DNA of 64,000 nucleotides, taken from assembly GCF_900108585.1 (NCBI RefSeq), contig NZ_UESZ01000001.1, positions 2,790,001 to 2,854,000 of the forward strand, in the 5' to 3' direction. Positions 35,716-38,980 of this stretch are shown here, one piece after another. Made by a program: the position numbers and the translations under genes. The notes beneath the pieces are model-generated. The model was not told the DNA's origin and ran no database searches. It worked only from the letters and a program-made list of their open reading frames with translations. The DNA comes from Branchiibius hedensis (lineage in GTDB: Bacteria > Actinomycetota > Actinomycetes > Actinomycetales > Dermatophilaceae). Position 1 is the first letter of the stretch; every line of letters starts with the position of its first letter.

Positions 35716-36210
35716 CTATCCCTCCAACAGGTGGCGGAATGCCTCCAGGTTGCGGGTGGACTCTCCTCGGGAGATGCGCCAGTCCCATTCTTTCTTCATG
35801 GAGCTGAAGAAGCCGAGGACGAGCAACTCGTTGAAGACCTCGTCGGCGGCCGCCAGCACCGCGCCCAGGAGCCGGTCCAGATACTCCTCGTCCACCCCGC
35901 CGATCGGCACGCGACTGGTGACGTAGACATCGCCGTCACCGTCGATCCCGTAGGCCAGTCCGGGCAGCTTGAGATTCTTGCGCAGCAGGAACCGGTAGAA
36001 CTCGGCATGGTTCTCATCCGCGTTGCGGATGACGAATGCCGTTGTGGTCAGGTCGGTTTCGCCGACCAACAGGGAGCAGCCGGTCTTCAGTTTGCGCTCG
36101 CCCGGCAGGTTGGCGACCAGTTCGAAGTCGCGCGCGCCGGGCTCCCAGTCGACGTCGTTGCCGCTCAAGAAGGCAGCGACGGTGTCGTAGGTGGCTTGTT
36201 GAGTGCTCAC
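35716..36210 (-). CDS. YbjN-domain protein
   Basis: This 164-residue protein has the YbjN (sensory-transduction-like) fold: [15 protein letters not shown] at the N-terminus and a central [30 protein letters not shown]. It starts with GTG overlapping the mshA stop (GTGA), so it is co-translated with mshA. YbjN proteins may act as chaperone-like partners; a type III secretion chaperone-like fold is often noted. The conserved linkage with mshA suggests a housekeeping role, not defined. Confidence 0.88.
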
Positions 36211-37454
36211 AGAACCCTCCTCTTGTGCTGCACAGCCTCGACGTACGCCGAGAACAGATCGTCCGTCGTACGTTCCCAGCCGTGGGCGGCGGCGTGCGCT
36301 ATTCCCGCCTCGCTCAACTGCTTGCGCAGATCGGGATCATCCAGAAGACCGGCGATCGCGCTCGCCCAGTCCGCCGGGTCATGCCCGCGCACCAACCGGC
36401 CGCCGGGGCCCACGGCGCCCGGCAGTCCCCCGACATCGGTGGCCAGGACCGGTGCCCCACTGGCCAACGCCTCCAGCGCGACCAAGCCGAAGGACTCCGA
36501 TCGGGAGGGGACGGCAACCAGATCGGCCGCGCGGAACCAATCGGCCAAGCCCGCCCGCGACACGGGCGGCACGAACTGCACGACGTCGGCAATGCCGAGA
36601 TCGCGGGCCAGTTGCTGCAGGGCACGCGGGCGCTCCAAGCCACTTCCACTCGGGCCACCGAGGACACCGACGATCAGGTTCGACCGCCGATGCGGTTCTC
36701 GGGCAAGCAGATTCGCGACCGCTCGCAGTAGAACGTCCGGTGCTTTCAGCGGCTGGATGCGCCCGACAAACAGCACAAGGTCGGCATCAACCGGCAGGTC
36801 GAGGCGACTGCGCGCGGTGCTCGCGGCTCCGGAGGTGAAGGTCGTGAGGTCCACACCCGGTTCGATGACGCGCACCTTGACCGGATCCGCGGCGTACAGG
36901 TCGATCAGTTCAGTTGCCTCGGTCTCGGTGTTGGCCACCAGCACATCGGCAACCTTCACCACCTGCTCCTCACCGACGATGCGAGTGAGCGGCTCGGGCG
37001 TATCCCCTTCGGCCAGCGCAGCATTCTTGACCTTGGCCATCGTGTGCATGGTGTGCGCAAGCGGGACCCCCCAGCGCTCGGCGACCAACCAGCCGACCTG
37101 ACCAGAGAGCCAGTAGTGGGAGTGCACCAGGTCGTAGTGGCCGTGCGGTTGGCGAGCGACCTGGGCCATCACTTCCGCGGCGAAGGCGCACAGCTGCGCG
37201 GGCAGATCTTCTTTGCGCAGGCCTTCGTACGGGCCGGCGTCCACGTGACGCACCAGCACCCCGGGCGCGAGGACCACCTCGTCGGCCAGGCTGGCACAGG
37301 TGCGGCGAGTGAAGATCTCCACCTCGACACCGCGTTGCGCGAGCCGTCGGGCGGTCTCGACGACGTAGACGTTCAGGCCGCCGGCGTCCCCCGTGCCGGG
37401 CTGTTCCAGCGGGGAGGTGTGCACCGACAGCATCGCTACCCGTCGGATGTCCAC
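36207..37454 (-). CDS. mshA: D-inositol-3-phosphate glycosyltransferase (mycothiol synthesis)
   Basis: This 415-residue GT-B enzyme of family GT4 transfers GlcNAc from UDP-GlcNAc to inositol-3-phosphate, the first step to mycothiol. Signature segments are [22 protein letters not shown] (about 10-31), [15 protein letters not shown] and [15 protein letters not shown] with the Glu pair that binds the nucleotide sugar. The GTG at 37454 is supported by TAGGGT seven bases upstream. mshD lies 10 kb to the right in the same window. Confidence 0.96.
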
Positions 37455-37477
37455 CCGACAAACCCTACGCTTGAGCG
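37455..37477. promoter_or_regulatory. Overlapping divergent -10 boxes, mshA / methyltransferase
   Basis: Only 23 bp separate the two GTG starts. Leftward -10 TAGGGT occupies 37467-37462; rightward -10 TACGCT occupies 37466-37471; they share two base pairs. Both lie 6-7 bases from their GTG, so both mRNAs should be leaderless and each -35 region must lie within the other gene. Confidence 0.7.
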
Positions 37478-38260
37478 GTGCCAGCCAAGCGTCCCGTGGG
37501 TGCCGTCACCCGGGGCACGACCAACCCCAACCGGTTGCGCCGGTGCGACCGGTGGCTGGCCGGCCCCCAGGCGTGGCGACTGCGCTCCAGCCCGGCACCG
37601 ACGGTGGTGGACCTCGGGTACGGCGCGTCCGGGGTGACCGCGCGCGAACTGTCTGATCGGTTGCTGGCCGTGCGCTCGTCGGTGACCGTGGTGGGTTTGG
37701 AGATCTCCGCTGCGCGGGTCGAAGCCGCCCTGCCGCTGACCCGGCCCGGACTGTCCTTCGCCGTCGGCGGATTCGAGATCCCGGTGCCTGGGACGGTGCG
37801 CGTGATCCGGGCATTCAACGTGCTGCGCCAGTACGACGAATCGTCGGTCGCGGACGCGTGGTCGCTGATGCAGTCGCGACTCGATCCGGATGGCCTGATC
37901 GTGGACGGCACCTGCGACGAACTCGGCCGGATCGCCTCGTGGGTGGCGCTGGAGCGATCCGGGCCGGTCTCGCTGACCGTGTCGCTGCGGTTGCGTGGTC
38001 TGCAGGACCCGGCGATCGTGGCCGAGCGACTGCCCAAAGCACTGATCCACCACAACGTTGCGGGCTCACGAGTGCATGCCTTCGTCAGTGATCTGTCCGG
38101 TGCGTGGGCTCGGTCAGCCAGCTACTCGGCGTACGGCGCCCGGCAGCGTTTCCGCCAGACCGCGCTCGCGCTGCGGGAGGCGGGGTGGCCGTTGTTGGAC
38201 GACGAATCGCGTTGGCGGCTGGGCGAACTCACGGTTGCTTGGTCTGCGGTGGCGCCGTAG
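37478..38260 (+). CDS. Class I SAM-dependent methyltransferase-like protein
   Basis: This 260-residue protein has a Rossmann-like SAM pocket ([20 protein letters not shown], about 43-62, then VVGLEIS) but a weaker downstream half than typical methyltransferases. The basic N-terminus ([16 protein letters not shown]) is conserved in homologues next to mshA in actinobacteria, as I recall. The GTG start fits the leaderless promoter described for this gap. Substrate unknown; the neighbourhood suggests a function tied to general metabolism rather than a pathway. Confidence 0.8.
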
Positions 38261-38294
38261 CCTCGACGATTCCGAGGATCAGAACCAGCGCCAG

Positions 38295-38717
38295 TCATCC
38301 GGGCAGAAGGATGGTGTGGACCCCGAGTGCGTCGTAGGTCGTCCGTGCGCGAGCGTCACGTGTCGCCAGCGCCAGCCCGTGCTCACGTGCCGCAAGCGCA
38401 ACCATGCCGTCGTACGTCGATCCGCCGCTGACCCCGGCGGCGGACAGGGTGCGGTGCAACTGCGCAGCAACGCTGTGCGGGAGCGCGACTCGCCGCGGAA
38501 AGTTGTGATCGATCAGGGTCGCCGCATCATCTGCGGAAACCCTGGCATCGGCCGGAAGCCGGGTGATGACTGCGTACGTCTCGGGCAGGGCGTGCCCGCT
38601 CAGGACGAGCGTCTTACCAACGGCCCAGCCCGCCACAGCCCGGTGAGCTGTGTGCGACGAGATGAGCAACGGGACCGCAACACTGGTGTCGATCCCGACC
38701 GCAGTCGGTTGACTCAC
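38295..38717 (-). CDS. vapC: PIN-domain toxin (VapC family)
   Basis: This 140-residue PIN ribonuclease has acidic metal ligands in GIDTSVAV (Asp9), the central ETYAVITRLP (Glu46), STYDGMVALAA and ATRDARA. It is the toxin of a VapBC pair and probably cleaves tRNA or rRNA when free. It overlaps its antitoxin gene by 4 bases. All catalytic acids are present, so it looks functional. Confidence 0.92.
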   Translation of the reverse strand: MSQPTAVGIDTSVAVPLLISSHTAHRAVAGWAVGKTLVLSGHALPETYAVITRLPADARVSADDAATLIDHNFPRRVALPHSVAAQLHRTLSAAGVSGGSTYDGMVALAAREHGLALATRDARARTTYDALGVHTILLPG

Positions 38718-38953
38718 CGGCGACCGGCGTCGATCAGCGCAAACATGTCGCCATCAGTGACCGGCGTTGCACTCACCGCGACCAAACGCCCGTCCTCGTC
38801 TTGTTGGAGTCTCGCCGTCCGACCGCCCGGCGTGATCTGGGCCCCGGCGCCGTAGACGGAAACGTCGACGGTTGTGCCGGGCGTCAGACCGAGCGCGTCT
38901 CGCACCGCTTTGGGCAGGAGCAGCCGACCCGCGGCGTCGATGGTGACCTCCAT
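38714..38953 (-). CDS. vapB: AbrB/SpoVT-type antitoxin (VapB)
   Basis: This 79-residue antitoxin has an N-terminal swapped-hairpin AbrB domain (MEVTIDAAGRLLLPKAVRDALGL, about 1-23) and a C-terminal tail to cover VapC. The ATG at 38953 is six bases from TAGCCT (38965-38960), so the mRNA is probably leaderless. It autoregulates, most likely through the inverted repeat over its promoter. Confidence 0.9.
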   Translation of the reverse strand: MEVTIDAAGRLLLPKAVRDALGLTPGTTVDVSVYGAGAQITPGGRTARLQQDEDGRLVAVSATPVTDGDMFALIDAGRR

Positions 38954-38980
38954 GGGAACAGGCTACCAATTGACTCCCAT
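38952..38980. promoter_or_regulatory. Candidate VapB operator over its own promoter
   Basis: ATGGGA (38952-38957) and TCCCAT (38975-38980) form an inverted repeat spanning the -10 box and start codon of vapB, the usual place for toxin-antitoxin autorepression. Confidence 0.45.

Follow-up and report, generated by a model that had tools for sequence, protein, structure and literature searches.

A candidate bidirectional promoter between leaderless-type mshA and methyltransferase-like genes, and the recurrence of its geometry across the order

The divergent GTG start codons of mshA and of a methyltransferase-like gene are separated by only 23 bp, and the element ACCCTACGCT lying between them is probably a sigma-A-type bidirectional promoter, of the 23-bp class, that gives rise to a leaderless methyltransferase mRNA in one direction and to a leaderless mshA mRNA in the other; the starts, the sigma factor and the two-way activity are what we infer from its letters. 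We also lean, by a small degree, towards the view that double-leaderless bidirectional promoters, built on the 10-bp pattern ANNNTANNNT or the 7-bp pattern TANNNTA and with start codons about 22 or 17 bp apart, form a recurrent class in the order, which would have arisen repeatedly where intergenic DNA collapsed so far that a -10 box came to be shared by two leaderless promoters. The site lies in what is called here the window, namely the whole 64,000-nucleotide stretch that was analysed (G000:C1:2790001-2854000, G+C 68%), which comes from a genome of 4.0 Mb.

The features of the locus are collected in Table 1. The mshA product scored 600.9 bits against TIGR03449, above the curated cut-off of 462.5, and is thus a member of that family. 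No ATG, GTG or TTG was found in frame upstream of its GTG at 37454, and a start at the internal ATG (codon 8) was discarded because it would cut a conserved R-V-A-M stretch common to the relatives. The gap, CCGACAAACCCTACGCTTGAGCG, has the length and limits that had been proposed in the sequence-only reading, and the overlap of the two -10 hexamers by two base pairs was likewise confirmed: the TA at 37466-37467 belongs both to TAGGGT and to TACGCT, on opposite strands, in agreement with the overlap that defines bidirectional promoters (PMC10268837). On both sides a TANNNT box stands 5-8 nt before an ATG or GTG start (6 and 7 nt), as in leaderless promoters. These distances fit the earlier claim that both messages are leaderless, while the leaderless state and the start sites themselves are predictions; the latter, at 37454 and 37478, would be 24 bp apart, within the 7-25 bp of the definition (PMC10268837).

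Table 1. Features of the mshA/methyltransferase locus (positions in the window)
Feature	Position	Strand	Basis
mshA, D-inositol-3-phosphate glycosyltransferase (mycothiol synthesis, first step)	36207..37454	-	TIGR03449 equivalog
mshA GTG start and predicted transcription start	37452..37454	-	predicted leaderless
Intergenic gap, 23 bp, between both GTG starts	37455..37477	.	sequence
-10 box TAGGGT, mshA, 7 nt before GTG	37462..37467	-	sequence
10-bp shared element ACCCTACGCT (ANNNTANNNT, self-complementary pattern)	37462..37471	.	order-wide pattern enrichment
-10 box TACGCT, methyltransferase-like gene, 6 nt before GTG	37466..37471	+	TANNNT at 5-8 nt in 94/104 loci
Methyltransferase-like gene GTG start and predicted transcription start	37478..37480	+	predicted leaderless
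Methyltransferase-like gene, 260 aa, conserved divergent neighbour of mshA/gpm cluster	37478..38260	+	fold-level evidence

The occurrence of TANNNT 5-8 nt from both starts is expected in 0.28% of random 23-mers with the composition of the window, in 0.60% with that of the gap and in 0.35% of shuffles of the gap; for one gap, such an arrangement by chance is unlikely but not negligible. At spacings of 16-18 bp no -35 sequence matched at more than two of six positions on either strand, the best match overall being TTGGCT on the minus strand (four of six, at 15 bp), and a sigma-70 scan returned no site. Sigma-70 promoters of the -35/-10 kind, with a good -35 box, were ruled out, none having been found. 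Each -35 region does fall within the coding sequence of the other gene, as had been stated, but neither contains a good match. No Shine-Dalgarno-like sequence could be recognized by eye in the gap and Rfam gave no match over 37000-38300; a structured or riboswitch leader was dismissed on this Rfam result and because the gap leaves no room for one.

In the mechanism proposed, RNA polymerase with the main sigma factor would bind ACCCTACGCT in either orientation, one leading to the leaderless methyltransferase mRNA and the other to the leaderless mshA mRNA, with 5' ends at or next to the GTG codons. Since both messages look leaderless, the distance between the start codons would be set by the geometry of the promoter. 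The sister genera still have two leaderless-type promoters lying a short distance apart, and a pair of this kind would have merged as intergenic DNA was lost; the methyltransferase -10 box, on gaining an A four bases upstream, would have become a -10 box for mshA as well. With promoters of ordinary strength, each gene would be expressed independently of the other, and interference would be confined to strong activation of one side.

The evidence from relatives is different for the two boxes. The 110 methyltransferase loci comprise 105 distinct upstream regions, 104 of them with an ATG or GTG start, which was taken as an in-frame ATG or GTG, with a conserved TRG of the methyltransferase as anchor. 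In 94 of these 104 loci TANNNT precedes the start by 5-8 nt; the counts for the other 4-nt bins (1-4, 9-12, 13-16, 17-20 and 21-24) were 3, 26, 2, 1 and 13. The -10 box of the methyltransferase gene is secure because it is kept so widely and, judging from this conservation, the leaderless-type promoter of this gene is old and retained. For mshA, NANNNT was found 5-8 nt before the start in 17 of 35 loci, compared with 8-10 in the other bins. TANNNT at that distance occurs in only two (the window and L035), and conservation thus lends no direct support to the mshA box seen in the window.

With a single genome in the genus, the closest comparison is offered by five sister loci. Their mshA boxes are GAGACT (L048, Metallococcus), CACACT (L018), GAGACT (L013), CAGACT (L041, Allobranchiibius) and GACAAT (L039, Leekyejoonella), all directly preceded by TGC or TGG, located 6-8 nt before the mshA start and separated from the methyltransferase box by 13, 9, 14, 26 and 34 bp, respectively. 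The start-to-start gaps are 33-59 bp in these loci and 23 bp in the window, where the boxes overlap by 2 bp; in other relatives the gap between the two genes ranges from 80 to 950 bp, some reaching 820-950 bp. Because the sister genera keep both genes leaderless-type with separate boxes, the overlap seems to be a derived state, produced by the merging of two leaderless promoters, which is the simplest reading of these sequences. The A that completes ANNNTANNNT was present in 12 of the 94 methyltransferase promoters, a frequency close to that predicted from base composition, and the window is the single one of these 12 in which a gene known to be divergent starts at the right distance. As a separate observation, upstream of the methyltransferase gene at L184 (G190), TACAGT could be seen by eye on each strand, as divergent leaderless-type -10 boxes; they sit in an inverted repeat, CCACTGTAGG...CCTACAGTGG, beside a different divergent gene.

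Two leaderless messages whose -10 boxes share TA are expected to have start codons about 22 bp apart, and the pattern CAY-N6-ANNNTANNNT-N6-RTG was searched over 149 genomes of the order, with controls in which both spacers were changed. It was found at 201 sites in 101 of the 149 genomes, versus 61 sites in 39 genomes with N3 spacers, 74 in 42 with N9 (both of which preserve codon phase) and 59 in 34 with N10; these counts include repeats and sites common to related genomes, which are not independent, so that Fisher values for the comparison overstate its certainty. Four identical double-leaderless-type sites were noticed on contig C2 of G133, probably within a repeated element. The pattern read backwards gave 116 sites in 52 of the 149 genomes, more than the spacing controls, and in the genome of the window itself the N6 pattern and its backwards control gave equal numbers (three sites each). 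An 18-bp class, CAY-N5-TANNNTA-N5-RTG, was represented by 109 sites in 64 genomes, versus 23 sites in 17 genomes with N2 spacers.

At 16 of 30 N6 loci versus 2 of 30 N9 loci, an open frame no shorter than 100 codons led away from each of the two starts. The former were taken one per genome from the 38 matching genomes among 59 searched, and the latter one per genome from the 42 matching among 149, AT-rich genomes being commoner in the controls. In the genome of the window, three of the four sites with the 7/6 spacing, including the one under study, have long frames in both directions, while L122 has none. The other two such pairs consist of an AAA ATPase gene with a BrkB-family gene and of a uracil-DNA-glycosylase-family gene with a PLP decarboxylase gene; the one N6 site examined of the three in that genome (L175) lies between a glutathione-peroxidase-family gene and a peptidase S51 gene. 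These make at least three further pairs in the genome, and Pfam reveals no functional relation within any of them.

These results bear on the alternative that the element is a real promoter for the methyltransferase alone, that a single A has produced TAGGGT by chance on the reverse strand, and that mshA transcription begins inside the methyltransferase gene or at some other weak start, which we regard as unlikely, if still deserving some weight. That A, in 12 of 94 methyltransferase promoters, is about as frequent as base composition predicts, the window is the only case in which it falls 7 nt from the start of a known divergent gene, and mshA in the window lacks the TGN-[CG]AGACT type of box seen in its relatives. 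However, 7 nt is a usual leaderless distance, the gap is, by eye, devoid of any Shine-Dalgarno-like sequence, the sister mshA boxes are themselves of the leaderless type, so that a replacement is to be expected, and the same geometry is enriched across the order at real divergent gene pairs. The bidirectional promoter is thus the reading retained.

As for the partner of mshA, searches of the 260-aa protein with Pfam and NCBIfam profiles yielded no match at 0.001, including any to a class I SAM methyltransferase; the best Pfam family was Methyltransf_25, with 14.5 bits against a cut-off of 27, and a relative reached 22.0. A profile made of 25 relatives found one solved SAM-dependent methyltransferase (PDB 1wzn_A, E 0.00077). 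An AlphaFold2 model (pLDDT 92, pTM 0.88) was compared with the PDB using Foldseek, and the 50 matches listed were all or nearly all SAM-binding methyltransferases, with a best E of 1.2e-07, in accord with a Rossmann-like methyltransferase fold. Among these listed matches the TM score over the query was 0.33-0.42, and hence only part of the 260-aa protein is matched. Its motif is DLGYGAS, without the third glycine that is usual in the class I methyltransferase motif. Methyltransferase is therefore a fair label at the level of the predicted fold, the activity being putative.

A search of 198 genomes of the order detected the gene in 75. In 103 of the 110 loci its direction of transcription leads away from the mshA/gpm cluster, six others having no neighbour match and one being called same-strand, possibly through an orientation error of the script. 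The nearest divergent gene among those tested was mshA in 37 loci, some of which leave room for another gene in between, and gpm in 66; the names gpm and ybjN come from profile searches, and two further neighbour genes used as queries are, we presume, senX3 and phoU. The family thus appears as a conserved methyltransferase-fold family, with no Pfam or NCBIfam model above its cut-off, divergent to an mshA-ybjN-gpm cluster and, in Arthrobacter-type and Curtobacterium-type genomes, to gpm alone. A role of the protein in mycothiol synthesis in particular was rejected, as the gene adjoins gpm where mshA is not its neighbour. At 38295-38955 of the window, on the minus strand, the methyltransferase gene is followed at once by a convergent PIN-domain (VapC-like) gene, in front of which stands a short gene that by eye resembles an AbrB-type antitoxin.

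The sequence-only reading had drawn from the shared boxes that mycothiol synthesis and the methyltransferase should at each moment be mutually exclusive. Its physical premise holds: for steric reasons two polymerases cannot occupy boxes that share 2 bp at once, as is stated for this promoter type in PMC12825309. The expression claim does not follow, as the E. coli analogues, on which the only direct tests found were made, show no basal competition (PMC12825309): in all five of the bidirectional promoters tested the basal activity was too weak for it, the output of one direction hardly changed when the other was knocked down, and competition was seen only under strong activation of one direction. 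The anticipated rise of one promoter on disabling the -10 box of the other is, likewise, the opposite of what the same report describes at basal strength. Selected exclusion between the two functions is also unlikely because the overlap is not conserved, the boxes being 9-34 bp apart in the sister loci and the gaps 80-950 bp elsewhere.

We consider it improbable, therefore, that the element works as a functional toggle in which competition for the shared box sets the ratio between mycothiol synthesis and the methyltransferase. Steric exclusion at overlapping boxes is real, E. coli bidirectional promoters can show repression of one direction when the other is activated (PMC12825309), and mshA is the divergent neighbour of the methyltransferase gene at 37 of 110 loci, all of which would suit a toggle. 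Against it stand the absence of the overlap from the sister genera examined, the low basal activity at the five E. coli promoters (PMC12825309), the 66 further loci in which the methyltransferase gene diverges from gpm and not from mshA, and the lack of any functional relation, as far as Pfam shows, between the pairs that share this layout elsewhere in the genome. A conserved exclusion was rejected, the overlap not having been seen in the relatives examined.

The bidirectional promoter with independent expression of both genes remains the preferred account. It would be a compact example of a more general point, that with leaderless messages the closest packing of two divergent genes is set by the geometry of their promoters. 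Candidate double-leaderless promoters can be picked out by the spacing test from sequence alone, and the interest attaches mainly to this order-wide result, not to the mshA pair. It also advises caution, since a shared -10 box need not be a regulatory switch, and the layout described here is probably not one.

Bacterial bidirectional promoters were reportedly introduced in a founding paper of 2021 by Warman, Grainger and colleagues. The divergent pair ermE/eryCI is a possible precedent, for which no describing paper was found among those listed, and the titles and beginnings of abstracts of the open-licence papers listed contained no prior description of leaderless bidirectional promoters. The site would accordingly join a known class in the form of a leaderless variation. 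Common spacings between divergent starts are 18, 10 and 23 bp (PMC12825309), and bidirectional promoters are defined by divergent starts 7-25 bp apart (PMC10268837). Hexamers that share TA, with the usual distances to the start, give 23 bp by simple arithmetic; at the site in the window one spacer is longer by a base, hence 24 bp and not 23. The site resembles the promoters of both reports in its base-sharing -10 boxes, in divergent starts (here predicted) within 7-25 bp and in admitting one polymerase at a time. It differs in that those studies concern enterobacteria and leaderless messages go unmentioned in their accessible text, whereas here both messages look leaderless, with start codons about 22-24 bp apart.

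A second comparison is provided by M. tuberculosis, in which 26% of the genes with a primary transcription start are leaderless and leaderless promoters with TANNNT and no conserved -35 motif are common (PMC3898074). The two predicted promoters are like these in having TANNNT near a start site at ATG or GTG, in lacking a -35 box and in the use of GTG. A figure legend of that report describes divergent promoters in close juxtaposition as frequent in M. tuberculosis and shows prpD and Rv1129c as a divergent pair, both leaderless and induced together. An overlap of -10 boxes is not described for such pairs in the accessible part of PMC3898074, whereas the two boxes of the window do overlap.
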